Assembly: GCF_900110455.1 (NCBI RefSeq)
Contig: NZ_FOIS01000003.1
Coordinates: 327,491-391,490, forward strand
Length of the DNA stretch: 64,000 nt
Direction: 5' to 3'
DNA from: Natrinema salifodinae
Lineage (GTDB): Archaea > Halobacteriota > Halobacteria > Halobacteriales > Natrialbaceae
Part shown: positions 13,623 through 32,839 of the stretch, in pieces
How positions within the stretch are numbered: the stretch's first letter is position 1
Layout: each line of letters opens with the position of its first letter
The notes under the pieces: model-generated
What the model was told of the DNA's origin: nothing
Database searches by the model: none
The model's input: the letters and a program-made list of their open reading frames with translations, nothing else
Made by a program: the position numbers and the translations under genes

Positions 13623-14801
13623 ATGTCACGTGCCATCTTCGACGAGAGCGAGTACGAACGCCGGGTCTCGCGGACGAAAGAGCGATTACGCGAGGCGGAC
13701 CTCGACGCCATCGTCGTCGCCGACCCCGCGAACATGAACTACTTGACGGGCTACGACGGCTGGTCGTTCTACGTCCACCAGGCCGTCGTGGTCACGCCCG
13801 ACCGCGACGAACCGATCTGGATTGGCCGCGGAATGGACGCGGGTGGCGCGCAGGCGACGACCCACCTCGCCGAGGAGAGCATCCGCGCGTACAGCGACGA
13901 CCACGTCCACTCGCCGTCCGATCTCCACCCAATGGACTACGTCGCGGGCGTGCTCGAGGAACTGGACGTCGCCGACGGCCGGATCGGCCTCGAGATGGAC
14001 GCCGCCACCTTCTCCGCGAAATCGTACACGCGCCTGCGGAAGAACCTCCCCGAGGCTGCGTTCGAGGACGCGACGCTGCTGGTCGGCTGGCTCCGGATCA
14101 CGAAGTCCGAACGGGAACTCGAGTACATGCGCCAGGCGGCCCGGATCTCCGAGAACGCGATGCGGGCGGGCCTGGAGACGATCGAGGACGGCGTGCCGGA
14201 GTACGAGGCCGCGGCCGCGATCTACGAGCAGTTGATCACCGGCGCCGAGGAGTACGGCGGCGACTACCCCTCGATCGTCCCGCTGATGCCCTCCGGCGAG
14301 CACACGGGCACGCCGCACCTGACCTGGACTGACCGGCGGTTCGAGGAGGGCGACCCGGTCATCATCGAGCTTTCGGGCTGTCGCCACCGATACCATTCGC
14401 CGCTGGCCCGCACGACGTTCGTCGGCGACCCGCCCGCGGAACTCGAGCACACCGCCGAGGTCGTCGTCGAGGGGATCGAGGCCGCGCTCGATGCCGTCGA
14501 ACCCGGCGTCACCTGCGAGGCCGTCGAGAAAGCCTGGCGGGAGACGATCGCGCGGTACGACATCGAAAAGGAGGACCGCATCGGCTACTCGATGGGTCTG
14601 GGTTACCCACCGGACTGGGGCGAACACACCGCGAGCATCCGGCCGGGCGACGAGACCGTCCTCGAGGAGGACATGACCTTCCACATGATCCCCGGCATCT
14701 GGACCGAGGAGGTCGGCATGGAGATCAGCGAGACGTTCCGCGTCACCGGCAGCGGCGCGGAGACGCTAGCCGACTTCCCGCGGCGGCTGTTTACCGCGTG
14801 A
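13623..14801 (+). CDS. doeA: Ectoine hydrolase (M24 pita-bread fold)
   Basis: Opens the pyrimidine ring of ectoine to N-acetyl-2,4-diaminobutyrate, the first step of ectoine use as carbon and nitrogen source. From memory of Halomonas DoeA / Sinorhizobium EutD, the 392-residue protein matches along its whole length: ADPANMNYLTGYDGWSFYV near residue 34, GGDYPSIVPLMPSGEH, GYPPDWGEHTASI and FPRRLF at the end. The M24 metal ligands are mostly missing, as in DoeA and unlike prolidases: EL..HSPLART replaces the DxG..SDxTRT pattern. The ATG at 13623 has a TATA-like element about 45 nt upstream, giving a leader of about 20 nt. It may be confused with Xaa-Pro peptidases in automatic annotation. Confidence 0.88.
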   Translation: MSRAIFDESEYERRVSRTKERLREADLDAIVVADPANMNYLTGYDGWSFYVHQAVVVTPDRDEPIWIGRGMDAGGAQATTHLAEESIRAYSDDHVHSPSDLHPMDYVAGVLEELDVADGRIGLEMDAATFSAKSYTRLRKNLPEAAFEDATLLVGWLRITKSERELEYMRQAARISENAMRAGLETIEDGVPEYEAAAAIYEQLITGAEEYGGDYPSIVPLMPSGEHTGTPHLTWTDRRFEEGDPVIIELSGCRHRYHSPLARTTFVGDPPAELEHTAEVVVEGIEAALDAVEPGVTCEAVEKAWRETIARYDIEKEDRIGYSMGLGYPPDWGEHTASIRPGDETVLEEDMTFHMIPGIWTEEVGMEISETFRVTGSGAETLADFPRRLFTA

Positions 14802-15687: not shown

Positions 15688-16668
15688 TCAGTCCGATTCC
15701 GGCCGGCGAACCGCGTTCTCGAGGTCGTCGCCGGTCGCGAGCGCCTCGACGTTGTGCGCGACGATGTCCGCCAGGCGGTCCCAGTGCTTGGGCGTGTGGC
15801 CGCCGGTGTGGGGCGTGATCAGGCAGTTCTCGAGGTCCCAGAGCGGGTGGTCGTTCGGGAGCGGTTCGGGGTCGGTGACGTCGAGGGCGGCCCCGCGAAT
15901 CTTGTTCGATTGCAATGCAGCGACGAGCGCGTCGGTGTCGACGATCCCGCCGCGGGCCGCGTTGACGACGACGGCGGTCGGTGGGAGCGTCGCTAACTCC
16001 GCCTCGCCGACGAGGCCGCAGGTCAGGTCGTTGAGCGGACAGGCGAGGACGACGTAGTCGCTGCGGGCGAAGGCCTCGTGGACGTCCTCCGCCTCGAAGC
16101 CGAGTACCTCGTCGGTCGGGCCACCCTTCTCGGGCGTGTAGCGGATGCCGATCGTCTCGACCTCGAAGCCCTCGAGCCGTTGGACGACCGCCTGGCCGAT
16201 CGAGCCGAGGCCGACGATCGTGACGGTGCTGTCGGTGAACTCGTGGGATTGGAAGTGGCGCCACTCGCCGTTTTGCTTGCGGCGCCAGCCCTCGTGGAGC
16301 CGGCGGGCGAAGACGAGCATGTTGCCGATCGTCTGCTCGGCGATGCCGGGCGCGTGGATCCCGCCCGCGTTGGTCACGGCGACCCCGCGCTCGGCCAGGG
16401 CGTCCGTCGGGAGGTGATCGGTGCCGGCGAAGGTACACGCGAACAGTTCGAGCCGCTCGGCGCGCTCGAGGCGGTCTTCCTCGATCGAGATGCCCGTCGC
16501 GACCCGCGCCCGTTCGACGAGTTCGCGTTCCTCCGCCGGCGTCCGCGCGAGCGCGACCGTTCGGTCGGGCAGCCGCTCGCGCAGCGTCTCGGCGTACGAC
16601 TCCATCGACAGTCCCTCCGTCCCCTCTCGCAGGACGACGATATCCGGGTTCGCTGGATTCGTGCTCAT
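15688..16668 (-). CDS. D-2-hydroxyacid dehydrogenase (NAD-dependent)
   Basis: Oxidoreductase of the D-isomer-specific 2-hydroxyacid dehydrogenase family, 326 residues. The dinucleotide motif GLGSIGQ is near residue 145. The catalytic trio is Arg in NAARGGIVD, Glu in DVTDPEPLP and His in ITPHTGGHTP. The ATG at 16668 is preferred over a GTG at 16689. It is divergent from the M20 amidohydrolase and shares a 127-bp promoter region with it, which suggests co-regulation. The substrate is unknown; a role in hydroxyectoine-derived hydroxyacid metabolism is possible but unproven. Confidence 0.88.
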   Translation of the reverse strand: MSTNPANPDIVVLREGTEGLSMESYAETLRERLPDRTVALARTPAEERELVERARVATGISIEEDRLERAERLELFACTFAGTDHLPTDALAERGVAVTNAGGIHAPGIAEQTIGNMLVFARRLHEGWRRKQNGEWRHFQSHEFTDSTVTIVGLGSIGQAVVQRLEGFEVETIGIRYTPEKGGPTDEVLGFEAEDVHEAFARSDYVVLACPLNDLTCGLVGEAELATLPPTAVVVNAARGGIVDTDALVAALQSNKIRGAALDVTDPEPLPNDHPLWDLENCLITPHTGGHTPKHWDRLADIVAHNVEALATGDDLENAVRRPESD

Positions 16669-16795: not shown

Positions 16796-18136
16796 ATGAG
16801 CGAACCGGTACGGGACCGCCTGGTCACCCTTCGACGGAGTCTCCACCGCCACCCCGAGCCGGCGTGGCGCGAGTTCTACACCACTGCCCGACTCGTCGAG
16901 GAGATCCGGGCTATCGGCGTCGACGAACTGGCCGTCGGCCCGGACGCTTACGACCCCGCCGATCGGATGGCCGTCCCCGACAAGGACCTCGAGCCGTGGG
17001 TCGAGCGTGCCCGCGAGCGCGGCGCCGACGCGGCCCTGCTCGAGCGGATGGCCGGCGGTAACACCGGCGCCGTCGCCGTCCTCGAGCGCGGCGAGGGCCC
17101 GACGATCGGCCTTCGGGTCGACATCGACGCGCTGTTCATCGAGGAATCGACCGACGCAGCCCACGACCCCGCGTCCGAGGGCTTTCGCTCCGAAATAGAG
17201 GAGACGATGCACGCCTGCGGCCACGACGTCCACATGACCTGGGGCCTGGCCGCCCTCGAGCGAATCGCCGACAGCGACTTCGCGGGTCGCCTGGTCGTCT
17301 TCTTCCAGCCCGCCGAGGAGGTAAGCGGCGGCGGGTGTCCGATGGCGAAAAGCGAGTTCGCCGAGGGCCTGGACTACCTGCTCGCGGTCCACGTCGGCCT
17401 CGATCACCCGACCGGCGAGGTCGTCGCCGGGATCGAGAAGCCCCTGGCGATGTGTCACGTCGACGCGACGATCGAGGGCAGCGCCGCGCACGCGGGCAAG
17501 GCCCCCAACGAGGGGGCCAACGCCATGCACGCCATGGGGACCGCGATCGAGAACGCCTACGGCATCCCCCGGCACGCGGACGGGATGACCCGGGTGAACA
17601 TCGGCAGGGCTGAGGCCGGGACCGCGAGCAATATCATCGCCGAGCGCGCCCATATGGAGTGCGAGGCCCGCGGCGAGACCACCGCGCTGATGGAGTACGT
17701 AAAGCGCCGCCTCGAGCGCACCGTCAAATCGGCGGCGACGATGCACGACTGCCGGGCCGACGTCGAGGTCGTCAGCGAGTCGCCCCGCGCCGACAGCGAC
17801 CTCGAACTCCAGACCGTCGTCAGCGAGGTCGCGACCGACGTCGACGGGATCGACAGCGTGCTTCCGGCCGCCGAGTTCGGCGCGAGCGAGGACGCGACCT
17901 TCCTGATGGACCGCGTCCAGCGCGCGGGCGGCCTGGCGAGCTACCTGATCGTCGGCACCGACCACCCGACGAGCCACCACACGCCGACGTTCGACGTCGA
18001 CGAGACGAGCCTCGAACACGGCGTCGCCGTCCTCGTCGGTGCGATCCGGGCGCTCGAGCGCAGACATCCGGTGGCGCACGCGGAGCCGGAGGACGGATCG
18101 CGCACGGACGTCGCGAACGCGGAGGTCGACGGATGA
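16796..18136 (+). CDS. AbgA-like M20 amidohydrolase
   Basis: Zinc amidohydrolase of peptidase family M20, 446 residues. It resembles AbgA (aminobenzoyl-glutamate hydrolase subunit A) more than generic IAA-amino-acid hydrolases. The shared features are the RMAVPD insertion near residue 58, the metal motif MHACGHDVHM near residue 138, FQPAEEVSGGG, SAAHAGKAPNEGANA, and the C-terminal SEDATFLMDRVQ...GTDHPTSHHTPTFDVDE. It overlaps the next gene by 4 nt (ATGA), so it is in one operon with the threonine-dehydratase-like gene. In this context it could deacylate an acyl-diaminobutyrate, but that is inference. A paralogue lies at 23.9 kb. Confidence 0.9.
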   Translation: MSEPVRDRLVTLRRSLHRHPEPAWREFYTTARLVEEIRAIGVDELAVGPDAYDPADRMAVPDKDLEPWVERARERGADAALLERMAGGNTGAVAVLERGEGPTIGLRVDIDALFIEESTDAAHDPASEGFRSEIEETMHACGHDVHMTWGLAALERIADSDFAGRLVVFFQPAEEVSGGGCPMAKSEFAEGLDYLLAVHVGLDHPTGEVVAGIEKPLAMCHVDATIEGSAAHAGKAPNEGANAMHAMGTAIENAYGIPRHADGMTRVNIGRAEAGTASNIIAERAHMECEARGETTALMEYVKRRLERTVKSAATMHDCRADVEVVSESPRADSDLELQTVVSEVATDVDGIDSVLPAAEFGASEDATFLMDRVQRAGGLASYLIVGTDHPTSHHTPTFDVDETSLEHGVAVLVGAIRALERRHPVAHAEPEDGSRTDVANAEVDG

Positions 18137-19419
18137 GCGGGGGCGGCGAACGGAGCGAGCCGCCCGAGCGGGATGCGTCGAACGGACCGGACCGGGCCCC
18201 CGTCACCATCGAGGATGTCGAGGCGGCCCGGGAGCGCATCGCCGACGTCGTCCACTGCACGCCGCTGGACACCTCGCGGACGTTCGCCGGCCTGAGCGGC
18301 GCAGCCTCGATCGGGCTCAAACTCGAGAACGTCCAGCGCACGGGCTCGTTCAAGATCCGTGGCGCGTACAACAAGATGGCCCGGCTCTCGACCGACGAGC
18401 GCGAGGCCGGCGTCATCTCCGCGAGCGCGGGCAACCATGCCCAAGGCGTCGCGCTGGCCGGCGACATGCTCGACATCGACACGACGATCGTCGTCCCCGA
18501 GGTGACGCCGGCGGCGAAGATTGAGGCCACCCGCGGCTACGGCGCCGCGGTCGTCGTCGAGGGCGACATCTACGAGCGCTCCTACGAGCACGCCCTCGAT
18601 CGGGCCGCCGAGACCGGCGAGACGTTCGTCCACCCCTTCGACGACGAGGCCATCGTCGCCGGCCAGGGGACCGTCGGCCTCGAACTGCTCGAGCAGTACC
18701 CCGACGTCGACGCCGTCCTCGTCGCCATCGGCGGCGGCGGGCTCATCTCGGGGATCGGAACGGCGCTGAAGGCTCGCGATCCCGATATTCGCGTGATCGG
18801 CGTCCAACCCGAGGGCGCCGCACACGCGAAGCCGTCCCTCGAGCGCGGCGAGATCCGCGAACTCGCGGCCGTCGACACCGTCGCGGAGGGGATCGCCGAC
18901 ACCCGCATGCTCGAGACCACCTTCGCGATCGCCCGCGAGGTCGTCGACGGCGTCGTCAGCGTCAGCGACCGCGAGATCGCGACCGCCGTGACTCTGCTGG
19001 CCGAGCGCGCCAAGACCGTCGCCGAGGGTGCCGGCGCAGCGCCCCTGGCGGCCGCGCTCTCCGACGACCTCGACCTCGAAGGGGAGCGCGTCGCGGTCGT
19101 CGTCTCCGGCGGCAACGTCGACCTCACCGAACACGCCGAACTGACCCGCACCGGCCTCCACGAACTCGGGCGCTACGCCGAGGCCAGGCTAGCCGTCGAC
19201 GCCTGGCCGACGACGGTCGGCGACGTCGCCGAGACCGTCGAAGCCGAGGGGGCCGAACTGGACGCCTTCGAGCGCGCTCGGCGGACGTCGGTCGATCACC
19301 CGAACCGCACGCCCGTAACGATCGGGATCGAAGGGAGCGGCCCCGATCATCTGAACGGCGTACTCGAAGCGTTGGCGGCTCTCGACGGTGTCTCCGTCGT
19401 CGAGCACTCGTTCGAGTGA
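18133..19419 (+). CDS. Threonine ammonia-lyase-like PLP enzyme (EutB-like)
   Basis: Fold-type II PLP enzyme of 428 residues that deaminates hydroxy amino acids. The PLP Lys lies in the segment GSFKIRGAYNKM near residue 75. Further motifs are SAGNHAQGVA, the phosphate loop GGGGLISG and the PLP-ring contact Ser in VVSGGN. The last 80 residues form a divergent ACT-like tail. In bacterial hydroxyectoine pathways EutB is a protein of this family, and co-transcription with an amidohydrolase beside doeA fits that role. Plain serine/threonine deamination is the alternative. A more standard IlvA is present at 62.4 kb. The 18133 ATG overlaps the upstream stop. Confidence 0.85.
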   Translation: MSGGGERSEPPERDASNGPDRAPVTIEDVEAARERIADVVHCTPLDTSRTFAGLSGAASIGLKLENVQRTGSFKIRGAYNKMARLSTDEREAGVISASAGNHAQGVALAGDMLDIDTTIVVPEVTPAAKIEATRGYGAAVVVEGDIYERSYEHALDRAAETGETFVHPFDDEAIVAGQGTVGLELLEQYPDVDAVLVAIGGGGLISGIGTALKARDPDIRVIGVQPEGAAHAKPSLERGEIRELAAVDTVAEGIADTRMLETTFAIAREVVDGVVSVSDREIATAVTLLAERAKTVAEGAGAAPLAAALSDDLDLEGERVAVVVSGGNVDLTEHAELTRTGLHELGRYAEARLAVDAWPTTVGDVAETVEAEGAELDAFERARRTSVDHPNRTPVTIGIEGSGPDHLNGVLEALAALDGVSVVEHSFE

Positions 19420-19551
19420 CATCCACCGTTCCGGTGGTGGACCGGATCTGAAACAGTATCCGTTTACCTGATCGATTCGGGGCAACCGCTGATCGTACTC
19501 GTGGCAGGGACGAAAACCGACCGGCGGGACGAACCCGAGGCGTGAGACCCG

Positions 19552-20901
19552 TTACGCGACCGTCGCGCTCGGCCCGACCGCCTCGATCGCGTCGAGGAAG
19601 AGTCCGATCCCTAACTCGATCTCGCGCTCGGTCGCGTCCAGCGGCGGGAGCAGCCGGATCGTCTTCTTCCCGCAGCCTAGCGTCAGGAGCCCGCGCTCGA
19701 GGGCCGCCTCGACGACCGCGCTCCGGCGCTCGGGCGTGTCGAACTCGACGGCCAGCATCAGGCCCTTGCCGCGGACGTCCTCGACGCAGTCGGGCGCGTC
19801 GTCGCGCAGGAGTTCCTTCGCTTGCTCGCCGCGTTCGGTCGCGTTGTCGAGCAGGTCGTACTCCCGAATCGCTTCGAGGGTGAACGCGCCCATCATCGAG
19901 CCGAGCAGGTCGCCGCCGCCGAAGGTCGACCCCAGCCGATTCTTCTCGCTGGGGAAGACCTCCGAGCGCGAAATCGTCGCACCGACGCGTAGGGCCTTCG
20001 CGCTGGCGATGACGTCGGGTTCGATCGGGTAGTGATCCGAGGCCCAGATCTCGCCGGTGCGGCCGACGCCGGACTGGATCTCGTCGACGATCAGGGGGAT
20101 GTCGTACTCGTCGCTCACGTCGGCGACCTCCCGCACGAACGCCTCGCTGGGGAACCGGTAGCCGCCGACGCCCTGGATCGGCTCGAGGATGAGGAAGGAG
20201 ATCTCGTCGGGGTCGATGTGGCCGCCTTCGGGCGCGAGCGCGTTGCGGAGCTGCGAGCCGGCGCCGGTGAAGAACCCGCAGTCGCAGTCGCCGGTGCAGT
20301 CGCAGAACGGCATCGTCTCGATGCCGTCGATCTGGGGGTAGTGGCGCGTGTAGACCTCCTTGGACTTCGTGATCGAGAGGGTGCCGAGCGTGCGCCCGTG
20401 GAAGCTTCCGGCGAAGGCGACGCCGTACTTCGACGGTGCCCGGTAGTCGGCGGTGATCTTCATCGCGTTCTCGACGGCCTCGGCCCCCGAGTTCGAGAGG
20501 AAGACGGTGTCCATCCCGTACTGGCTCGAGACCTCGATGAGTTTCTCCATGAGGTGGCTCGACCCCGGGACGGCCGACTCCTCGGGCGTCGGGCCGGCGC
20601 CGAAGTACATGTCTTGGCCGGCGATCTTCATCGGTTCGACCAGGTCGAACTCGCGGACCTTGCCGAGGACCTTCTCGTTGTTGTAGCCGAGCGGCGCGGC
20701 GCCGATGTGGCAGGTGAAGTCCAACAGGACGTTCCCGTCGACGTCGGTGACGAACGGGCCGTCGGCCTCGCCGGTCGCGTCCCAGACGAACTCGTGGGAG
20801 TACTCGCTGGGCGCCGAGTACGACTGGTGGAAGTCGACCCACTGCTGCGCGTTCGGACCCGGGAGCGCGTCCGCGTCGGGTTCCGCCGTGTCCCTATTCA
20901 T
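19552..20901 (-). CDS. Class III aminotransferase with Cys-rich insert
   Basis: PLP-dependent omega-aminotransferase of 449 residues, of the archaeal group near ornithine/GABA aminotransferases and amino-acid racemases. The PLP phosphate motif is NSGAEAVENAMKI, the Asp is in LIVDEIQSG, and the internal aldimine Lys is Lys302 (SAKAL). An unusual CxCxxxCxC cluster at Cys200, 202, 206 and 208 is reminiscent of a metal site. The ATG at 20901 follows a TTTTAATG TATA by about 28 nt, so the mRNA is leaderless, and an ACACA-N5-TGTGT inverted repeat spans the start. Within the island it may act on diaminobutyrate or another amino donor; the second aminotransferase at 25.8 kb looks closer to DoeD. Confidence 0.86.
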   Translation of the reverse strand: MNRDTAEPDADALPGPNAQQWVDFHQSYSAPSEYSHEFVWDATGEADGPFVTDVDGNVLLDFTCHIGAAPLGYNNEKVLGKVREFDLVEPMKIAGQDMYFGAGPTPEESAVPGSSHLMEKLIEVSSQYGMDTVFLSNSGAEAVENAMKITADYRAPSKYGVAFAGSFHGRTLGTLSITKSKEVYTRHYPQIDGIETMPFCDCTGDCDCGFFTGAGSQLRNALAPEGGHIDPDEISFLILEPIQGVGGYRFPSEAFVREVADVSDEYDIPLIVDEIQSGVGRTGEIWASDHYPIEPDVIASAKALRVGATISRSEVFPSEKNRLGSTFGGGDLLGSMMGAFTLEAIREYDLLDNATERGEQAKELLRDDAPDCVEDVRGKGLMLAVEFDTPERRSAVVEAALERGLLTLGCGKKTIRLLPPLDATEREIELGIGLFLDAIEAVGPSATVA

Positions 20902-20933
20902 ACACAGTTTATGTGTACCTCGTACATTAAAAC
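20902..20933 (-). promoter_or_regulatory. Aminotransferase promoter: TATA plus ACACA-N5-TGTGT operator-like repeat
   Basis: The minus-strand TATA (TTTTAATG, about 20926-20933) is 28 nt from the ATG. Between TATA and start, ACACA (20902-20906) and TGTGT (20912-20916) form an inverted repeat. It lies exactly where a repressor would block initiation. Confidence 0.45.
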
Positions 20934-21044
20934 TTGTTATGGGTTGCCTCGGATCGGTCCCGATACCGGCGGGGAAAACACAGCATGACGGCCGCGGCGA
21001 CGGGCTACGACTCGTCGATCGGTGCGGTGGAGGGTGCGGACGAC

Positions 21045-22721
21045 TCAGTCGTCGTCCGATTCGACGGGACCGCCCGGGCCGGCGGGCGACGATTCGGCTT
21101 CCGTTTGCGCGCTCGAGCCGACGAGCACCGTCTCGTCCTGAAGGAGCACGCGGCCGTACTCCGAGCCGAAGTCCTTGATCAGCGAGAGCATCGCGAGGAA
21201 GCAGACGAAGGCGAAGGGCGTGCCGGTGATGATCGCCGCCTGCTGGAGCGTGTTCGCGCTGCCCGTGCCGCCGAGGATCATCAGGATCGCAGCCGTCAAG
21301 CCGAGGACGACACCCCAGAAGATCCGGTTGATGGTCGACGGCCTGGCCTTCCCGCCGGTCGTCATCATCGAGACGGCCAGCGTCGAGGAGTCCGCGGACG
21401 TGACGAAGAAGGTCGTCACGAGGATCATGAAGGCCAGCATGAACACGGATCCCAGGGGGAACGTCTCGAAGAGGATGAAGCCGGAGACCTCCGCGCCGGC
21501 GTCACCGGCTATCACCGCGCTGAAGTCGGCGACGCCGTTGTGCTGGGCCCAGACGGACGTGCCGCCGACGAACGTGAACCAGGGGATGGTGGCCGCGGAG
21601 GTCGCGACGATACCGGTGAAGGCGACCTCGCGGACGGTCCGACCCTTGGAGATGCGGGCGATGAACAGGCCCGCGAACGGAGACCACGAGAGCGCCCACG
21701 CCCAGTAGAAGACCGTCCAGGCGTTCATCCACTCCGTCGCTTCCTGATTTCCCGCACCGAAAGCGCCGGCGCCGGTAAAGAGGCTCATCGAGACGAAGTC
21801 GGAGACCATCCCGCCGAGGGCCTGGGTGCCGAGCAGGATCAGGAACAGCGTCGGGCCGACGATGAACGTCCCGATCATGAGGACGACGAAGAGGATCATG
21901 TTGAAATTCGAGAGGCGGCGGATCCCCTTGTCGACCCCGAGCACCATCGAGGTCGTAAACAGCAGCGTCATCATCGTCACGACGAGGAGGATGCCGACGT
22001 TCCCGATGCTGATGCCCCACTGATAGTCGAGGCCGGTGACGAACTGGCTCCCGATGAAGCCCAGCGACGTCGCCACGCCGCCGATGGTTGCGAAGACCGC
22101 CAGAATGTCGACGACCTTCGCGACCGGGCCGTCTAAGTTCTCGGCCCCGATGATCGGAGTCAGCGCCGAGGACACCCGAAGCGGCACCGACTCGTAGTTG
22201 TACGCGAAGTAGCCGATCGCGATCCCCATGATCGTAAACACCGCGAGTTGGGGCAGGGCCCAGTGGAACAGCGTCTGCTGGACCGCGATGGTCATCGCCT
22301 CGGCGGAGCCGCTCTGCACGTTGAACAGCGGCGAGGGGCTGTCGTAGTAGAACAGCGCCTCGGTCGGGCCCCAGAACACGACGCCGGCCGCGAAGCCGGC
22401 CGAGTACAGCATCGCGAAGAACGACAGGAAGCTGTACTCCGGCGATTCGTCGCCGAGTCTGATCGATCCCCACGGGCCGACGATCAGGAACAACAGGAAG
22501 ACGACGATCAGGAACACGATCAGCAACAGCGCCCAGTTGAACGCACCGAGCATCGAGTCGTTCAGCGACGAGATGCCGTTTTCGACCGTCGTCGGACTGA
22601 TGAAGAACGCCGCGATCACGCCGACCGTCAGCAACGCGCCGAACAGGAAGACGGTCCGGTCAATCTCCTCGAGGAACTGATCGACCATCCCCGTCCCTCG
22701 CTCCTCCTCGCCGTCGCTCAT
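21045..22721 (-). CDS. BCCT family osmolyte transporter
   Basis: Secondary carrier for betaine, choline, carnitine or ectoine-type compatible solutes, 558 residues with about 12 transmembrane helices. Family marks are AGVVFWGPTEALFYY, and the signature stretch WTVFYWAWALSWSPFAGLFIARISKGRTVRE with its Trp box. Ectoine is a plausible substrate given the surrounding catabolic genes, though glycine betaine is equally possible from sequence. Unlike most neighbours it has a perfect ribosome-binding site, GGAGGTGA at 22728-22735, six nt before the ATG, so the mRNA has a leader. TATA-like elements lie near 22829-22837 and 22950-22957. Confidence 0.93.
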   Translation of the reverse strand: MSDGEEERGTGMVDQFLEEIDRTVFLFGALLTVGVIAAFFISPTTVENGISSLNDSMLGAFNWALLLIVFLIVVFLLFLIVGPWGSIRLGDESPEYSFLSFFAMLYSAGFAAGVVFWGPTEALFYYDSPSPLFNVQSGSAEAMTIAVQQTLFHWALPQLAVFTIMGIAIGYFAYNYESVPLRVSSALTPIIGAENLDGPVAKVVDILAVFATIGGVATSLGFIGSQFVTGLDYQWGISIGNVGILLVVTMMTLLFTTSMVLGVDKGIRRLSNFNMILFVVLMIGTFIVGPTLFLILLGTQALGGMVSDFVSMSLFTGAGAFGAGNQEATEWMNAWTVFYWAWALSWSPFAGLFIARISKGRTVREVAFTGIVATSAATIPWFTFVGGTSVWAQHNGVADFSAVIAGDAGAEVSGFILFETFPLGSVFMLAFMILVTTFFVTSADSSTLAVSMMTTGGKARPSTINRIFWGVVLGLTAAILMILGGTGSANTLQQAAIITGTPFAFVCFLAMLSLIKDFGSEYGRVLLQDETVLVGSSAQTEAESSPAGPGGPVESDDD

Positions 22722-23187
22722 CCCGTCTCACCTCCCGGAACCGGCCGGTAGCGTGCTGATCGGTCGTGCCTCCACCTACCGTTTACCATGCTGCGTGATG
22801 GCATACCGATTTGGTCGTCAGTGTATACAATAAACGTTTCCCTCTAGCGGGAAACATATACAGATTATGTTTACATAGCGGTCTCACGACGAATAGGAGC
22901 TCCTGGCTCGGGATCGAACGAACGGCCACGAATCGGGACCGGACCGAACGTATATAACGGCCGATTCAAGCCTAATTACTGCGATCTACGCTATCGAGAA
23001 CGAGGTGATAGCGGCGCGAGTCGCTCCCGAAGTGGGAGGCGACGCCTCGTGGGATTACGGACGGGACGATCCTCGCGTGGTCCGCAGTGCTCGGATCTCA
23101 GGGTCGCTGCAAAGCCAGGTCGAAGACGGCCGGCGACGGCTGCGTGATCGGCTGAATCCGCCGTCCGTTAGCGTTCGCCAGTGTCCA
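22722..23187. promoter_or_regulatory. BCCT upstream region: SD, possible tandem promoters, hairpin and GTGTAT motifs
   Basis: This 466-base gap has no convincing gene. From the BCCT start outward it holds the SD at 22728-22735, a perfect palindrome TGTATACA (22822-22829), a hairpin GTTTCCC-TCTAGC-GGGAAAC (22836-22855), CATATACAG near 22855, and a symmetrical TATATAA near 22951. The BCCT leader may therefore be 80 to 200 nt and include the hairpin. The outer 200 bases show nothing recognisable. Confidence 0.45.
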
Positions 23188-23841
23188 TCAGCGTTCGTTC
23201 GTCAGTTCCTCGAACGTTTGCTCGCGGGACTCGGCGCTCTCAGTGACTCTCTCACTGAACTCGTCGACGCGCGCTTTGATCTCCTCGCGGGTGTCCGCCG
23301 GCGAGAAGGCGTCGGACATCGTCAGCAGGCGCACGAACGCGCGCAGTTCCTCGTCGGTGAGCTGGGCGAACTCCTCGTTCTCGAGTTTCTCGACGACCTC
23401 GTCGACGTCGATCTGACCGACGGGCTCGACGTTGAACTCGACGTTGACCATCCGATAGTTCGAGCCGGCGAGTCGCTGTTCGGCCTTGCCGACGCCCTCG
23501 GAGAGCATGTCCTTGAACGGCGTGTAGTAGCCCATCGTCCCCAGGTGAAGGAAGGCGAGCATGTCGGTGATCCCCTGGGTGTAGGCGTCGCGCTCCTCGT
23601 CGTCGGGATCGAAGACCGTCTCCCGGTCGCGTTCCTCTAAGTACTCGAAGAGAATGCTGAAATCGAGGATTCCGTTCCGAACGCGGCGTCGAATCCGATT
23701 TCGCTTCTGTTTTTTCGAGTGGTCCGTGTAGTCGGTCTTCCGGCCGAGCAAGAAATCACGATCGGAGGGGGTGAGGATTCCGCGCGGGCGATCCGAGTCC
23801 GCCGCCGTTCGCAGCGACTCCGGCACGTCGTCCTGACTCAT
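23188..23841 (-). CDS. Conserved haloarchaeal protein of unknown function
   Basis: A 217-residue, highly charged cytoplasmic protein without signal or membrane segment. The N-terminal half has RGILTPSDRDFLLGRKTDYTDH followed by a very basic KKQKRNRIRRRVRNGILDF segment, which I recall as a recurring haloarchaeal block of unknown function and possibly nucleic-acid binding. The C-terminal half is acidic and helical. The ATG at 23841 is supported by a TTAAT element about 30 nt upstream. An ATACACA word abuts the start, as at the aminotransferase gene. I cannot assign a function. Confidence 0.75.
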   Translation of the reverse strand: MSQDDVPESLRTAADSDRPRGILTPSDRDFLLGRKTDYTDHSKKQKRNRIRRRVRNGILDFSILFEYLEERDRETVFDPDDEERDAYTQGITDMLAFLHLGTMGYYTPFKDMLSEGVGKAEQRLAGSNYRMVNVEFNVEPVGQIDVDEVVEKLENEEFAQLTDEELRAFVRLLTMSDAFSPADTREEIKARVDEFSERVTESAESREQTFEELTNER

Positions 23842-23931
23842 ACACAGGTAGATGGAGAGCGGGCGGATTAACGTTACTGATCCCACGAACCCGACATGTG
23901 AATGTCATATTCGGGTCGACGGCCGCGCTCG

Positions 23932-25212
23932 CTACGGCCGCCGCCTGGCGAGTTCGATCGCCGTCTCGGAGAGCACCGCGACCCCGATATCGAGGCTCTC
24001 CTCGTCGATGTCGAAGGTGGGCGTGTGGTGGCTCGTCGGGTGGTCGGTCCCGATCAGGACGTACGAGGCCAGGCCGTTGTTGTCCTGGACGCGCTGCATC
24101 AGGTACGTCACGTCCTCGCTCGCGCCGAAGTCCGTGGCGGGAACGACGCGGTCGACGCCCGGGACCCCCCAGGCGACGTTCCCGATCAGGTCACGGAGCG
24201 CGGGATGGCTGTCGACGCGGGGCGACTCGCTGACGACACGGGGCGTGACGTCGCAGTCGTGCATCTCGGCGGCGGCGTACAGCACGCGCTCGAGTTCCGT
24301 CCGCATGTACTCCATGAGACCGGTCGTCTCGCCGCGGACCTCCGCCTCGATCGTGATCTCCTCGGCGATGACGTTGCTGGCGGTGCCGCCCTCGATGGAG
24401 CCGACGTTCACCCGGGTCATCCCGTCGCTGTGCCGGGGGATCGCGTACGCGTTCTGGATCGCGGTCGCCGCGGCCTGCATCGCGTTGCCGCCCTCGTTGG
24501 GCGCTTTGCCCGCGTGGGCGCTCGCGCCCTCGAAGGTCGCGGTCACGTGGGCCATCGCCAGCGGTTTCTCGACGCCGGCGACGAACTCGCCGGTCGGGTG
24601 GCCGAGGCCGACGTGGAGCGCGAGCAGGTAGTCGACGTCGTCGAGGTAGCCGCCCTCGGCCATCGCCTTCCCGCCGCCGGAGATCTCCTCGGCGGGCTGG
24701 AAGAAGACCTTCAGCGTCCCCTCGAAGTCGCCGTCCTTGACCGCCTCGATCGTCCCCAGCGCTATCGCCAGGTGGGCGTCGTGGCCGCAGGCGTGCATGT
24801 AGCCGTCGTGTTCCGACCGAAAGCCCGCCGCAGCCGGCCGGTGGTCGTCCTCGGTCGACTCCCGCATCGAAATGGCGTCGAGATCGACGCGCACTCCGAC
24901 GCAGGGACCCTCCCCCTCTTCGACCACCGCGACGACGCCCGTATTGCCGTCGGCGGTCCGCTCGAGCACGTCCGATCGGACGCCCGCCTGGCGGGCGCGC
25001 TCGCGCCAGGGCTCGAGTTCCGACGCGTCGGGGACGGCCATGCGCTCGTCGGTCGCCAGGACCTCGCGACCGACGGCGATCTCGTCGACCCCGATCCGCT
25101 CGAGTTCCTCGACGACGCGGGCCGTCGTCCGGAACTCCCGCCAGCCCGGCTCGGGGTGGCGGTGGAAGTCCCGACGTAACTCGCTCAACCGATTTCGGAC
25201 CTCGTGTGCCAT
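23932..25212 (-). CDS. AbgA-like M20 amidohydrolase (second copy)
   Basis: Zinc amidohydrolase of 426 residues and a clear paralogue of the enzyme at 16.8 kb. It shares HRHPEPGWREFRTTARVVEELERIGVDEIAVG, RMAVPD, MHACGHDAHL, the FQPAEEISGGG block, SAHAGKAPNEGGNAM, SEDVTYLMQRVQ and HHTPTFDIDEESL. All expected metal-ligand motifs are present. GATTAAG about 28 nt before the ATG indicates a leaderless mRNA. It stands upstream of, and opposite in order to, the DoeD-like aminotransferase group on the same strand. The duplicated pair suggests two related acyl-amino-acid substrates; the substrates are unknown. Confidence 0.9.
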   Translation of the reverse strand: MAHEVRNRLSELRRDFHRHPEPGWREFRTTARVVEELERIGVDEIAVGREVLATDERMAVPDASELEPWRERARQAGVRSDVLERTADGNTGVVAVVEEGEGPCVGVRVDLDAISMRESTEDDHRPAAAGFRSEHDGYMHACGHDAHLAIALGTIEAVKDGDFEGTLKVFFQPAEEISGGGKAMAEGGYLDDVDYLLALHVGLGHPTGEFVAGVEKPLAMAHVTATFEGASAHAGKAPNEGGNAMQAAATAIQNAYAIPRHSDGMTRVNVGSIEGGTASNVIAEEITIEAEVRGETTGLMEYMRTELERVLYAAAEMHDCDVTPRVVSESPRVDSHPALRDLIGNVAWGVPGVDRVVPATDFGASEDVTYLMQRVQDNNGLASYVLIGTDHPTSHHTPTFDIDEESLDIGVAVLSETAIELARRRP

Positions 25213-25371: not shown

Positions 25372-25761
25372 TCACCCCAGGTACGCGACGGCGTCCAGCT
25401 CCACGCGGACGTCCTCGGGGAGCCGCGAGACCTCCACGCAGACGCGAGCGGGCGGGATCTCGTCGAACCGCTCGCCGTAGGCCTCGTTGACCCGTTCGTA
25501 GTCGTCGAGGTCGGTCAGGTAGACCGTGACCTTGACGACGTCCGCCAGGCCGTCGCCCCCGGCTTCGTCGACGACCGCGGCGATGTTGTCGAGCACCCGG
25601 TCGGTCTGCGCCTCGATGTCGCCCTCTACTGCGTCGCCCGTCTCGGGATCGACGGGGCCGTAGCCGGAGACGTAGAGCGTGTCGCCGGCGCGGACGCCCT
25701 GGGAGTAGGGATTGTCGGTGCTCGGTGCGTCGTCGGTCCGAATTCGGTCGGTGTCGGTCAT
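25372..25761 (-). CDS. RidA family enamine/imine deaminase
   Basis: Protein of 129 residues in the YjgF/YER057c/UK114 (Rid) family, which hydrolyses reactive enamine/imine intermediates released by PLP enzymes. The pattern NPYSQGVRAGDTLYVSGYGPVDPETG and the C-terminal RVCVEVSRLPEDVRVELDAVAYLG are typical; the Arg of RVCVEV corresponds to the RidA active-site Arg. It is placed just downstream of a class III aminotransferase on the same strand and near a threonine-dehydratase-like gene, which is a sensible setting. A more canonical RidA is at 59.2 kb. Confidence 0.9.
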   Translation of the reverse strand: MTDTDRIRTDDAPSTDNPYSQGVRAGDTLYVSGYGPVDPETGDAVEGDIEAQTDRVLDNIAAVVDEAGGDGLADVVKVTVYLTDLDDYERVNEAYGERFDEIPPARVCVEVSRLPEDVRVELDAVAYLG

Positions 25762-25796: not shown

Positions 25797-27179
25797 TTAG
25801 GCCGTCTGCGCCGCGTCTGCGGTCGCTCGCTCGATCGCCTCGACGACAACGTCCAGCGCCGTCTCGGCAAGGTCATGCGTGAGCACCAGCGGCGGGAGGA
25901 ATCGGAGCACGTTGCCGTGGCGGCCGGCCGTCCAGACGAGCACGCCGCGTTCGAAGCAGTACCGCTGGATCGCGTCGACGACGTCGCCGTCCGGATTCCC
26001 GTCCGCGTCGACGAACTCCGCGCCGATGAGCAGGCCCCTGCCGCGGACGTCGGCCAGGCGGTCCGTCTCGTCGGCGGCCTCCCGGAGCCGACCCTGAATG
26101 TACTCGCCGAGGTCGCGAGCGTGGGCCAGCAGGTCGTGGTCCTGGATGTACTCGATGGCGCGGGTGCCGGCGCGCATCCCAACGACGTGGCCGCGGTAGG
26201 TGCCGGCGTGGTCGCCCGAGCCCCACGTGTCCAGTTCCTCCCTGTACATCGTCGCCGAGAGCGGGAAGCCGACGCCGCCCAGCGCCTTCGCGGAGGTCAT
26301 CACGTCGGGCGCGACGCCCTCCCAATCGCTGGCCCACCACTGGCCGGTGCGACCGAGGCCGCTCTGGATCTCGTCGAAGACGAGCGTGACGTCGTTGTCG
26401 TCGGCGATGTCGCGCAGACCCTGGAGGAAACCCTCCGGGGGCGTGACGATGCCGCCCTCGCCCTGAATCGGTTCGACGACGATTCCGGCCGGATTCGCCA
26501 GGCCGCCGTAGGGGTCCTCGACGATGGCCTGGACTTCCTCGAGGGCGTGATCGACCGCTTCCTCGGGCGACTTGTCCTGACGGAACGGGTGAGGATACGG
26601 TGCGTGGACGACGTCCGAGAGCAGGGGCGTGTAGTGGCCTTTGAACTTCTTGTTCGAGGTGACGCTCATCGCGCCGGTGGTCGCGCCGTGGTAGGCCCCG
26701 CGGAACGCGATGAGGCCGTCGCCGCCGGTGTTGTACTTAGACAGTTTGATCGAGGCCTCGATGGCGTCGCTGCCCGTCGGGCCGCCGAAGACGACCCGGT
26801 TGTTCCCCTGGAGGCCGTCCGGGGCGATCTCGTCTAATTTCTCGATGAGTTCGAGGCGGGCCTCGGTCGGAAAGTCGACGGTGTGGACGAACTTGTCCGC
26901 CTGGTCGTGGACGGCCTCGAGCACGTAGGGGTTCGCGTGGCCGACGTTGAGCACGCCGATGCCCGCGAACAGGTCGATGTAGGTGTTGCCGTCGGCGTCG
27001 CGGACCGTCGCGCCCTTCCCCTCCTCGAAGGCGATCGGAATGTCGTTCGGATAGGCGACCGCGCTGCTGTCGATCTCGCGCTGCTTCTCGAGCAGTTCCC
27101 GGGTCCTCGGCCCGGGCACGGAATCGACGGTCGGTGCGTCCTCGAAGTGGAGTTCGTCTATCGGCGGTCCTGCCGTCAT
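25797..27179 (-). CDS. Class III aminotransferase, EctB/DoeD-like (diaminobutyrate transaminase)
   Basis: PLP aminotransferase of 460 residues. It carries [16 protein letters not shown] (residues 133-148), the GPTG form of the phosphate-binding segment found in diaminobutyrate aminotransferases (EctB, Dat, DoeD), rather than the NSGAEA form of GABA/ornithine enzymes. Asp269 is in LVFDEIQSG and the PLP Lys is Lys298 (SAKALGG). The expected reaction is 2,4-diaminobutyrate plus 2-oxoglutarate to aspartate semialdehyde plus glutamate, the DoeD step of ectoine degradation. Because no ectoine synthase is nearby, a catabolic direction is favoured. The ATG at 27179 lies about 27 nt from a strong TATA, so the mRNA is leaderless. 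Confidence 0.88.
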
Positions 27180-27388: not shown

Positions 27389-28144
27389 CTACACCGATTC
27401 GCCGTCGCCGCGAAACGCCGCGACCGTCCCGTCGTCGATCCCGCCCCGCGAGAAGACCGTGACGATGTCGTCGGCCCGGATCTCGGTGTCGCCGTGGGGG
27501 GTCAGGACGGCGTCGTCCCGCTCGATCGCGACCACGAGCGCGTCATCGTCGAGCACGTCCCGCCGAACGGCCCGTTCCAGGGTCTCGCCGGCGAGCGGCG
27601 CCCCGGGATCGACGGTGACCTCGGCGACCTCCGCGTCGCCCGAGAGGCTGATGAAGTCCGTGACCGTCTCGCGGTGGGCATCCTCGTCGGGTCCGTACGG
27701 CGCGTACGACTGCCAGGTCTCGTTTTGAACGAGCACCTCGTCCTCGATCTCGACGCCGAGGTCCGAGAGCGACCGGGCGATGCGCCGGAGATCGTCCGTG
27801 TCCCTGCCGACCGCCAGCACGTGGAGGTTCCGTCGCCCGGTCATCAGTTCCCGGACGTTGATCACGCCCGGAATCACCTGCGCCTGACGGGCGATCGGTT
27901 CTCGCTCGGAGACCGGCGCGTTGCACATGAACAGGTTCGCCAGGCTGCCGTCCGCGCGTTCGAAGTCGATGTTCGCGTGGTAGCCAGTGATGATCTCTTC
28001 GTCCTCCAGTTGCGAGATCCGGTTTCGGATCGTTCCCGGCGAGACGTTGACGGCCTCCGCGATCGTCGGCGCCGAGATACCGCGAGCGTCGTCCATCAGC
28101 GCGTGGATGATCCGTCGGTCGATCTCGTCGAGGCGGTAGGTCAT
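27389..28144 (-). CDS. Lrp/AsnC regulator fused to an RCK_C (TrkA-C) domain
   Basis: Transcription factor of 251 residues. Residues 1-60 form the AsnC-type winged helix (LDEIDRRIIHALMDDARGISAPTIAEAVNVSPGTIRNRISQLEDEEII). Residues about 65-150 form an AsnC/Lrp ligand-binding ferredoxin-like domain. The last 80 residues are an RCK_C domain (APLAGETLERAV...DDALVVAIERDDAVLTPHGDTEIRADDIVTVFSR), the fold that binds small ligands in potassium uptake systems. Lrp/AsnC regulators (DoeX) accompany bacterial ectoine degradation genes, so this is the best candidate for the local regulator. TGTATGG lies about 26 nt before the ATG. Confidence 0.92.
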   Translation of the reverse strand: MTYRLDEIDRRIIHALMDDARGISAPTIAEAVNVSPGTIRNRISQLEDEEIITGYHANIDFERADGSLANLFMCNAPVSEREPIARQAQVIPGVINVRELMTGRRNLHVLAVGRDTDDLRRIARSLSDLGVEIEDEVLVQNETWQSYAPYGPDEDAHRETVTDFISLSGDAEVAEVTVDPGAPLAGETLERAVRRDVLDDDALVVAIERDDAVLTPHGDTEIRADDIVTVFSRGGIDDGTVAAFRGDGESV

Positions 28145-28419: not shown

Positions 28420-30717
28420 GTGAGCGCCGACGAAGAGCTCGCGAAGGACCTCGGGCTCCTCTCGGCGATCACGATCGGTATCGGCACGATGATCGGCGCG
28501 GGCATCTTCGTGTTGCCGGGCACCGCCGTCGCGCGGACAGGGCCGCTCGCGGCCGCCACCTTCGTCATCGGCGGAGTCACCGCGCTGTTCACGGCGCTGT
28601 CGGCCTCGGAACTGGGGACGGCGATGCCCAAGTCCGGCGGCGCGTACTTCTACGTGAACCGCGCCCTCGGGCCGCTGTTCGGCTCGATAAGCGGGTGGGC
28701 TAACTGGATGGGGTTGGCGTTCGCGTCCTCGTTTTACATGTACGGGTTCGGCGAGTACGTCAACCAGCTCGTGGGCGCGCCGGCGCTCGCACTCGGCCCG
28801 ATCACCGTGTCGGCCGCCCAGACGATCGGGCTCGTCGGCGCCACGCTGTTCATCGCCGTCAACTACGTCGGCGCCAAGGAGACCGGCGGGCTCCAGATCG
28901 CCATCGTCCTCACGCTGCTGGCCATCCTCGCCGTGTTCACCGTCGTCGGCCTGCTGAACGGCGATCTCGAGTCGCTTCGCCCCCTCGCACCGCCGGGAAC
29001 GACCGATCAAGTGCTCCCGGTGACCGCCATCGTCTTCGTCTCCTACCTCGGCTTCGTCCAGATCACGTCCGTCGCCGAGGAGATCAAAGATCCCGGTCGG
29101 AACCTCCCGCTGGCGGTCATCGGCTCGGTGCTGATCGTCACGACCGTTTACGCGCTGTTCCTCCTCGTGTTGCTGGCGGCGGTTCCGACCGATCTGGTGG
29201 CGGACAACGAGACGGCGGTCGTCGAGGCCGCCCAGTTGCTGTTTGGGCGGTACGATATCGGCGGTATCGGCCTCGGCACGTTCGGCTGGGCCATGTTGCT
29301 GTTCGGCGGCCTCCTGGCGACGGCCTCGAGCGCGAACGCATCGATCCTCTCGTCGTCGCGGATCAACTTCGCCATGGGGCGAGAGAAGATCATCTCGCCG
29401 TCGGTCAACGACATCCATCAGCGGTTCGGAACGCCGTACAAGTCGATTCTGATCACCGGCGTGCTCATCATCGTCTTCCTGCTGATCGGCGACCTCGAAT
29501 TGCTGTCGACCGCCGGGTCGGTCCTCCACCTGATCGTGTACGGGCTCTTGAACGTCGCCCTGATCGTCATGCGGGAAGCCGATCCGGCCGACTACGACCC
29601 GGACTTCGAGGTCCCGCTGTACCCGTTCGTTCCGATCGTCGGGACGGTCTCCTCGTTCGCGCTGATCGCGTACATCGAACCGCGCGTCATCGGTCTCTCC
29701 GCGGTGCTCGTCGTCTTCGCCGCGGTGTGGTACCTGTTGTACGCGCGCCAGCGCGTCGAGAACGCCGGCGTGTTCGCCGACTGGATCCTCGATCGCTCGG
29801 CCGAACTGCCCGACGCCGCGGTGGCCGCGGCCGACTCGGTCAGTCCCGAGGCCACCGAAACCGCCGCCTCGCGAGCGAACGACGACTTCCGCGTGATGGT
29901 TCCCCTGGCGAACCCCCGCACCGAACGGGAACTCATCACGCTCGCCGGCGCCATCGCGACCCAACGCGGCGGCACCGTCCACGCGGTCCACATCGTGCAG
30001 GTCCCCGACCAGACGCCGCTCGAACGGGGCGCCGAGCACGCCGAGCGGATGGACGCCGAGTCCCAGAAGCTGCTCGACCAGGCCCGTGCCGACGCCGAAA
30101 CGTTCGACGTTCCGGTCGAGGCGCACACGGTGCTCTCCCACCGCTCATTCGCGGAGATTTTCGACGCCGCTCGCACCTTCGAGGCCGACCAGGTCGTGAT
30201 GGGGTGGGGTCCCGCCGCTCACGGCCGCGCCGAGCCGCGCCTCGACGAGTTGACCCAGGACCTTCCCTGCGACTTCCTACTGTTGAAAGACCGCGACTTC
30301 GATCCCGAACGAATCCTGTTGCCGACGGCCGGCGGCCCCGACTCGGTGTTCGGTGCGGAGGTCGTCCGGTTGCTCCGCGAGGAGTTCGACGCCCGGGCGA
30401 CGCTCCTCCACGCCGTCGACGGGGACGAGTCCCGCGAGGAGGGCGAACGGTTCCTCGAGGAGTGGGCCGCCGAGAACGGGCTGTCCGACGCCGATCTGAT
30501 CGTCGACGAGCGAGACGTCGAGACCGCCATCGGCGACGCGGCCACGGACGCGACGCTACTGGTGATCGGTGCGACCGAGCGAGGGCTGCTGTCGCGGTTC
30601 GTCCAAGGGTCGCTGGTGCTGGACGTCCTCGACGATGTCGAGTGTTCCGTCTTGCTCGCCGAGACGGCCCGCGAGCGGACGATGCGCGAGCGGCTGCTGG
30701 GTATCGAACGAGAGTAG
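28420..30717 (+). CDS. APC-family amino acid permease with C-terminal universal stress domains
   Basis: Protein of 765 residues. Residues 1-450 hold about 12 transmembrane helices of the amino acid-polyamine-organocation family, starting with GTMIGAGIFVLPG. After a linker, two Usp-like domains follow (from FRVMVPLANPRTERELITLAG near residue 488, and from RILLPTAGGPDSVFGAEVV near residue 628). Such fusions are common in haloarchaea, where the soluble part may sense nucleotides. The start is a GTG chosen because GAGGTGA at 28407-28413 sits six nt before it. The substrate may be an amino acid; a role in exchange or uptake for the surrounding catabolic genes is possible. Confidence 0.92.
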   Translation: MSADEELAKDLGLLSAITIGIGTMIGAGIFVLPGTAVARTGPLAAATFVIGGVTALFTALSASELGTAMPKSGGAYFYVNRALGPLFGSISGWANWMGLAFASSFYMYGFGEYVNQLVGAPALALGPITVSAAQTIGLVGATLFIAVNYVGAKETGGLQIAIVLTLLAILAVFTVVGLLNGDLESLRPLAPPGTTDQVLPVTAIVFVSYLGFVQITSVAEEIKDPGRNLPLAVIGSVLIVTTVYALFLLVLLAAVPTDLVADNETAVVEAAQLLFGRYDIGGIGLGTFGWAMLLFGGLLATASSANASILSSSRINFAMGREKIISPSVNDIHQRFGTPYKSILITGVLIIVFLLIGDLELLSTAGSVLHLIVYGLLNVALIVMREADPADYDPDFEVPLYPFVPIVGTVSSFALIAYIEPRVIGLSAVLVVFAAVWYLLYARQRVENAGVFADWILDRSAELPDAAVAAADSVSPEATETAASRANDDFRVMVPLANPRTERELITLAGAIATQRGGTVHAVHIVQVPDQTPLERGAEHAERMDAESQKLLDQARADAETFDVPVEAHTVLSHRSFAEIFDAARTFEADQVVMGWGPAAHGRAEPRLDELTQDLPCDFLLLKDRDFDPERILLPTAGGPDSVFGAEVVRLLREEFDARATLLHAVDGDESREEGERFLEEWAAENGLSDADLIVDERDVETAIGDAATDATLLVIGATERGLLSRFVQGSLVLDVLDDVECSVLLAETARERTMRERLLGIERE

Positions 30718-31879: not shown

Positions 31880-32839
31880 ATGACGACGACGCTCGGAACG
31901 GCGAGCGCGGGGCCCGGCGAGATCGATACGGGCCGTCTCGAGGTGGGCGAGACGCGGGACGGGAGCACCTTCGGACTGCCTGTTGCCGTGGTCAACGGCG
32001 CGTCCTCGGGGAAGACGCTGTACATGCAGGCGGCCAGTGATGGTGACGAACTCAACGGCATCGGCGTTATCCGGCACGTCGTGCCGCAGCTCGATCCCAC
32101 CGAGCTCTCGGGTACGATCCTGATCGTCGGGATCGTCAACTACCACGCGTTCCAGATCGCCGAGCACCGCAATCCGATCGACGACACGAAGATGAACCGC
32201 GCCTACCCCGGCAACGAGGGCGGGACCTCCAGCGAACGGATCGCGGCCGCGACCTTCGACGTCGCGACCCGGGCGGACATGATCCTCGACCTCCATCAGG
32301 GCTCGACCAGCCGGATGTTAGACGAGGTCCGCGTACGCTGTGGCAAGCGCCACCGGCTCCACGACAAGTGTCTCGAGCTCGCGAAGGCCTTCGGCTGCGG
32401 GTACGTTCTCGACCAGAAGGGACCGGACGGGCAACTGGCCCGTGCAGCCCCCGACAAGGGGATCCCGACCGTCGACCCCGAACTCGGCGGCGCCGTCGGC
32501 TGGGACGAGACCAGCATCCGGAAGGGCGTCGAGGGCGTGTTCAACGTCCTCCGGTACTACGGCTTTCTCGACGGCGACCAACCGGTCGACCCCCAGACCC
32601 GCGCGAAGGGGTTCGAGCAGTACGGCACGCCCGCAGGCGGCCTGGTCGACCTCAAGAAGGACCTCGGCGACCGGGTGCGACCGGGCGAGACCCTGTTCGA
32701 GGTGACGACCCCCTTCGGCGAGCCGAAGGCAGAGATCACGGCCGACAGCGAGGGCATCCTCTGGCGCGCGCGCCGGCTCCCGCAGGTAGCCACCGGCGAG
32801 TACGTCTGCTCGGTCGGCACCGACATCGACGAGTACTAA
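31880..32839 (+). CDS. AstE/AspA-family deacylase (DoeB-like)
   Basis: Zinc-carboxypeptidase-fold amidohydrolase of the succinylglutamate desuccinylase/aspartoacylase family, 319 residues. In ectoine pathways the member DoeB/EutE removes the acetyl group from N-alpha-acetyl-diaminobutyrate. The second metal motif DLHQGS and the MNRAYPG loop are intact. The first motif reads SDGDELNG where most family members have HG(N/D)E, so Asp replaces a zinc His. The C-terminal 90 residues form a biotinyl-lipoyl-like barrel (GGLVDLKKDLGDRVRPGETLFEVTTPFG). GTATAAAGG lies about 30 nt upstream. It is 1 nt from the next gene and surely co-transcribed. The family is common in haloarchaea, so the DoeB role is inferred from context. 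Confidence 0.82.
   Translation: MTTTLGTASAGPGEIDTGRLEVGETRDGSTFGLPVAVVNGASSGKTLYMQAASDGDELNGIGVIRHVVPQLDPTELSGTILIVGIVNYHAFQIAEHRNPIDDTKMNRAYPGNEGGTSSERIAAATFDVATRADMILDLHQGSTSRMLDEVRVRCGKRHRLHDKCLELAKAFGCGYVLDQKGPDGQLARAAPDKGIPTVDPELGGAVGWDETSIRKGVEGVFNVLRYYGFLDGDQPVDPQTRAKGFEQYGTPAGGLVDLKKDLGDRVRPGETLFEVTTPFGEPKAEITADSEGILWRARRLPQVATGEYVCSVGTDIDEY

Follow-up and report, generated by a model that had tools for sequence, protein, structure and literature searches.

Two AbgA-type M20D amidohydrolases linked to DoeA as candidate deacylases in a putative haloarchaeal ectoine island

The stretch of Natrinema salifodinae DNA analysed here (64,000 nucleotides, positions 327,491–391,490 of contig NZ_FOIS01000003.1; hereafter the window) contains a gene island that encodes a DoeA/EutD ectoine hydrolase homologue together with two M20D amidohydrolases of the AbgA type, termed M20a and M20b. 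M20a (16796–18136, forward strand, 446 amino acids) is the DoeA-proximal copy and is proposed to be an N-acetyl-diaminobutyrate deacetylase, acting in the step after DoeA; M20b (23932–25212, reverse strand, 426 amino acids) belongs to a sister clade. DoeA itself, an enzyme of the M24 fold, is encoded at 13629–14801 on the forward strand (TIGR02993, 450 bits, E = 1e-134) and aligns end to end with the ectoine hydrolase of Halomonas elongata (PDB 6TWJ/6TWK, E = 5e-109), which is far ahead of other M24 members.

The original prediction of two AbgA-like M20 paralogues in a DoeA island is borne out, with both open reading frames intact and at the positions expected. Both proteins are members of the M20D family by TIGR01891 (246 bits for M20a and 278 bits for M20b, cut-off 153.75), both combine the Pfam domains Peptidase_M20 and M20_dimer, responsible for catalysis and dimerisation, respectively, and the two are 62% identical to each other. 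In each case the best PDB match is AbgA, 3IO1 (E = 5e-74 for M20a and 2e-89 for M20b, with runners-up at 3e-28 and 5e-34). A structural search with the AlphaFold model of M20a (mean predicted local distance difference test score, pLDDT, 90.9) likewise places 3IO1 first (Z-score = 44.7, root-mean-square deviation 1.8 over 383 residues, 34% identity) and YxeP second (Z-score = 39.9). Residues C141, H143, E174, E175, H199, H232, N279 and R292 (M20a numbering) are invariant in AbgA and in the three haloarchaeal clades a, b and c defined below. In the M20 family these catalytic residues are expected to bind metal and substrate and, as judged from the alignment, the active sites of M20a and M20b are intact.

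The similarity to AbgA (Klebsiella 3IO1; E. coli PGH) thus covers the fold, all catalytic residues, an RM.[VL]PD insertion and an SED[AV]T end followed by HH..xFD, the features by which we delimit the AbgA-type subfamily. It had been claimed that RMAVPD and SEDAT…HHTPTFD are shared by the two paralogues and specific to AbgA. RMAVPD and HHTPTFD are indeed found in both, SEDAT only in M20a, with SEDVT in M20b, so the second motif was slightly overstated; at these places AbgA itself has RMGLPD and SEDAT..HHNEKFD, and a third AbgA-type M20 in the same genome (clade c; contig C4, position 151870, locus L001) reads RMALPG, SEDAT and HHTATFD. Because such motifs also occur in this third M20, whose clade is present in nearly all haloarchaea with or without DoeA, they mark the AbgA-type subfamily in our alignments and are no marker of ectoine function.

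The usual second enzyme of ectoine degradation is DoeB/EutE, a member of the AstE/AspA family (PMC3187862, PMC5924519). Among 194 haloarchaeal genomes sampled evenly across the class, none encodes a DoeB/EutE above the TIGR02994 cut-off of 402.7 (best score ∼114 bits), weak relatives being present in all 194, and neither M20a nor M20b matches this profile.

DoeA was found in 66 of these genomes. AbgA-type M20s are present in 188, mostly as a single copy, while at least two copies occur in all 66 DoeA-positive genomes versus 10 of the 128 DoeA-negative ones, and matches above 548 bits are confined to genomes with DoeA. In a tree rooted on AbgA (IQ-TREE quick mode, SH-like approximate likelihood ratio support only), the unlinked copies, from genomes with and without DoeA, form clade c, which is present in nearly all haloarchaea irrespective of DoeA; its sister clade (support 99) comprises a, b and a small group d. 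Members of clades a or b occur in 66/66 DoeA-positive and 0/128 DoeA-negative genomes, and when the extra M20s of ten multi-copy DoeA-negative genomes were added to the tree, none fell into a or b and one (from G157) fell into d. M20b proper is found in 42 of the 66 genomes with DoeA, is missing from the other 24, and occurs in 0 of 128 without it. Since related genomes are non-independent samples, the comparison was also made at genus level: all 11 genera that contain both DoeA-positive and DoeA-negative species are concordant for the a/b M20 (sign test 0.0005). Of the amidohydrolase families seen in this analysis, the M20a/b clade alone matches the distribution of DoeA perfectly. Viral contigs yielded no relative.

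This co-occurrence is accompanied by physical linkage. In 61 of the 66 genomes, M20a and DoeA are no more than 8.5 kb apart (median gap 3.4 kb). The original prediction had named an occurrence mostly outside doeA neighbourhoods as counting against it, and this refutation fails. Of the five exceptions, two are at contig ends and three belong to one genus (G017, G061, G098) whose DoeA is encoded at another genomic site. For G039, the copy linked to DoeA was counted as M20a, although it branches deeply in the tree and groups with clade b at modest support (84). One genome (G019) has two equal-scoring DoeA copies near the two ends of one contig (C3:2670 and C3:298725); gene duplication or redundancy at the end of the contig could account for this. 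Separately, the small clade d consists of M20s unlinked to DoeA in G146, G024 and G082 (L182 3021, L184 3289 and L195 3437), which adjoin a different EutB-like gene (34–38% identical); the member from G157 comes from a genome without DoeA.

Between and around DoeA and the two M20 genes lie several further enzymes and a transporter. A D-2-hydroxyacid dehydrogenase (15688–16659, reverse strand; Pfam 2-Hacid_dh and 2-Hacid_dh_C) is divergent from M20a and is a conserved neighbour, present in the corresponding regions of 63 of 65 relatives. The stop codon of M20a overlaps the start codon of the next gene by 4 bp (ATGA, 18133–18136), which suggests translational coupling; this gene (18133–19419, forward strand) encodes a EutB/threonine-dehydratase-like pyridoxal phosphate enzyme (TIGR01127, 403 bits, cut-off 379; PRK07476 EutB, 271 bits, cut-off 413). 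On the reverse strand follow two conserved members of the island identified by profile matches, a class III aminotransferase of the acetylornithine/2,4-diaminobutyrate (DABA) type (AT1, 19552–20901) and a BCCT family transporter for compatible-solute uptake (21045–22721), then a gene for an orphan protein (23188–23841) and M20b. A RidA family enamine/imine deaminase (25372–25761; TIGR00004, 139 bits, cut-off 106) is encoded immediately upstream of M20b in the same orientation, and beyond it a second class III aminotransferase (AT2, 25797–27176, reverse strand, start codon uncertain) resembles DABA transaminases (PRK05769, 417 bits; PRK06938, 408 bits; EctB, 302 bits) and is a candidate DoeD. 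The order AT2-RidA-M20b-orphan-BCCT-AT1-EutB-M20a-dehydrogenase-DoeA is found again in Natrialbaceae and Haloferacaceae. By domain search, an Lrp/AsnC-type regulator with a TrkA_C domain (27389–28144, reverse strand), DoeX-like by type only, lies near M20b in some Natrinema loci only; an amino acid permease with a C-terminal Usp domain (28420–30717) adjoins it and is likewise close to the island only in some Natrinema. The idea of a shared TGTACA operator in front of M20a was considered and dropped (four occurrences in the window versus 1.75 expected).

We interpret this gene set as a haloarchaeal ectoine catabolic cluster that probably serves hydroxyectoine as well. DoeA would open the ring of ectoine (or hydroxyectoine) to yield a form of N-acetyl-L-2,4-diaminobutyrate, M20a would remove the acetyl group in a metal-dependent reaction to give diaminobutyrate and acetate, and AT2 or AT1 would transaminate the diaminobutyrate, while dehydration by the EutB-like enzyme and imine hydrolysis by RidA would fit a hydroxylated branch. 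That the M20s act as deacylases of the DoeA product, as the original prediction had it, is well supported by their co-occurrence and linkage with DoeA and by the absence of a DoeB/EutE equivalog. It is probable that M20a replaces the missing DoeB/EutE as N-acetyl-diaminobutyrate deacetylase and that M20b is a second deacylase copy with a shifted preference. M20b would be a catalytically intact duplicate that originated in Halobacteria and persists in roughly two thirds of DoeA-positive species, with the gamma-acetyl isomer, a hydroxylated form or mere dosage as candidates for what it adds. The M20 identity, the intact active sites, the exclusive co-occurrence and linkage, the lack of a DoeB equivalog and the common a/b clade were established by computation, whereas the most likely substrate is an inference from the gene patterns, as would be any division of labour.

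Several observations weigh against this interpretation. M20 amidohydrolases are promiscuous and their substrates are not deducible from the fold. Neither paralogue is a member of DoeB2 (NF038260), the M20-type N2-acetyl-L-2,4-diaminobutanoate deacetylase (94 bits for M20a and 118 bits for M20b, cut-off 550). DoeA scores below the TIGR02993 equivalog cut-off (450 versus 613 bits, with Bacillota homologues at 469 and 540), so that even ectoine is an inferred substrate, and no clear DoeC-type aldehyde dehydrogenase was recognised within the island of the window. The genomes behind the co-occurrence counts are not independent of each other. We found neither activity, growth or expression data for any haloarchaeal member nor an archaeal experiment in the literature, and the archaeal ectoine clusters are termed provisional in the main text of the 2026 study that proposed them (PMC13188858).

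Among the alternatives, a split of labour is possible but somewhat doubtful, with one M20 acting on N-alpha-acetyl-DABA and the other on N-gamma-acetyl-DABA or the 3-hydroxylated products of hydroxyectoine. The two clades carry fixed differences (a/b: Y52/L, F114/S directly after the metal-binding DxD, F369/Y and I385/L) that leave room for differing specificity, the M20a gene overlaps that of the EutB-like dehydratase, and the DoeA of H. elongata yields both isomers, of which DoeB refuses the gamma form (PMC5924519, PMC3187862). However, no residue could be linked to a substrate, the 24 DoeA-positive genomes without M20b imply that the split is not obligatory, and M20a is retained where no EutB-like gene was found in the DoeA/M20 region examined. 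It is unlikely that the island degrades another N-acylated or cyclic amino compound, DoeA being a relative with a different substrate. The sub-threshold TIGR02993 score of DoeA would agree with this, as would partners that are odd for an ectoine cluster, namely the D-2-hydroxyacid dehydrogenase, joined in some islands by a YdiJ/GlcD-like dehydrogenase of 1055 residues and GdhB; but the full-length alignment with the H. elongata hydrolase argues otherwise, and the BCCT transporter, the DABA-type aminotransferase and the EutB-like gene suit ectoine.

The AspA/AstE-type gene at 31880–32839 is the sole TIGR02994-like gene near the island (109 bits), and we regard it as very improbable that this is the haloarchaeal DoeB, which would leave the M20s with another role. 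Its orthologue is found in 194/194 genomes, nearly always as a single copy and irrespective of DoeA, and because of this universality it is no dedicated partner of DoeA; its score is far under the DoeB cut-off, a search of the DoeA/M20 regions from 65 relatives gave no copy of at least 50% identity, and it was rejected as DoeB, being a core gene of haloarchaea. Hardly credible is an AbgA–AbgB-like heteromer of M20a and M20b that cleaves p-aminobenzoyl-glutamate or folate catabolites: AbgA is the best solved relative, but AbgA and AbgB are 18.9% identical (PMC5082436) whereas the paralogues are far closer to each other and both AbgA-like, M20a stands without M20b in 24 genomes with DoeA, the two genes lie in a DoeA rather than a folate context with no AbgB-like neighbour, and no AbgT transporter scored above the cut-off in 21 genomes, this one included, so that an AbgA/AbgB/AbgT system was rejected.

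The proposed replacement of DoeB/EutE by M20a has parallels elsewhere. M20a and M20b share the M20D superfamily and the proposed reaction with DoeB2, although they lie outside that family, and M20a would share the pathway step with the proteobacterial DoeB/EutE (TIGR02994), which belongs to an unrelated family. A DoeA homologue is present in 41 of 200 genomes of one Bacillota order, the best being 58% identical to that of the window, and 19 of 20 DoeA neighbourhoods from this order (L231–L250) contain an M20D of another lineage than M20a/b. In one of them (L242), comprising DoeA, M20, aldehyde dehydrogenase, BCCT and aminotransferase genes, the M20 occupies exactly the DoeB slot, and it appears from DoeB2 and these clusters that the slot is filled by M20 enzymes in other lineages too. 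Such eutE-less Bacillota clusters resemble the haloarchaeal islands in having an M20D beside DoeA, often with a BCCT transporter and a class III aminotransferase; unlike M20a/b, their M20s, 25–30% identical to these, lack the AbgA insertion and form a separate branch. The AbgA-type M20s found in Bacillota are located away from DoeA. A joint transfer of M20 and DoeA from Bacillota is unsupported: the Bacillota DoeA proteins are 50–58% identical to that of the window, but the linked M20s are of a different lineage.

The main text of the 2026 study mentioned above (PMC13188858) describes Bacillaceae ectoine clusters in which eutE is absent and abgB present; with this and the M20-type DoeB2, the earlier statement that no AbgA relatives are assigned to ectoine pathways is outdated. 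The same text reports more than 100 archaeal EutD hits beside aminopeptidase, aminotransferase and BCCT genes and, where it refers to Figures S10 and S11, the conservation of these four genes between genera in putative Halobacteria clusters, which are probably the same as islands of the type in the window. The archaeal islands are therefore known from that text and the idea of an M20-type deacetylase has a precedent in DoeB2; an assignment of an M20 deacetylase, two paralogues and a co-occurrence test do not feature in the study's main text. In a wider scenario that we consider rather speculative, haloarchaea would have recruited their own AbgA-type M20 lineage for the DoeB role, independently of DoeB2 and the Bacillota M20, and its duplication would have given different isomer or hydroxyl specificities by which both DoeA products are used, the orphan protein being a further dedicated part.

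Archaeal ectoine catabolism is a sequence-based proposal whose second-step gene is unassigned in the main text of PMC13188858. If M20a is the deacetylase, at least three M20D groups and, once, an AstE/AspA enzyme have come to occupy this step, which makes it a clear example of non-orthologous replacement happening repeatedly, and many haloarchaeal genes labelled merely 'amidohydrolase' would gain a function. The field has yet to settle if the gamma isomer that DoeA produces is put to use or lost (PMC5924519, PMC8739950), a question for which a species carrying two deacylases would be well suited.

Many other DoeA islands (L103, 1978–3285 and 4148–7315; L109, L126, L138 and L140) carry a YdiJ/GlcD-like flavin adenine dinucleotide/iron–sulphur dehydrogenase (∼1055 amino acids) beside the D-2-hydroxyacid dehydrogenase, and some have a gene for the glutamate dehydrogenase GdhB after DoeA; in the window, neither occurs between DoeA and M20a. 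The pattern suggests that the archaeal pathway includes a D-2-hydroxyacid step. The orphan protein encoded between the BCCT transporter and M20b (23188–23841, reverse strand, 218 amino acids, start codon inferred) lacks matches in Pfam, NCBIfam and PDB and has no usable one in PHROG, and its predicted structure is unreliable (pLDDT 46). It is present in 19 of 21 DoeA-positive versus 0 of 38 DoeA-negative genomes, is 72–91% identical among the aligned haloarchaea and occurs as a single copy in this genome. A strongly basic, near-invariant stretch, GRKTDYT.HS.KQKRNRIRRR, could bind nucleic acid, and the protein is possibly an accessory factor of the ectoine island or, as one guess, its regulator.

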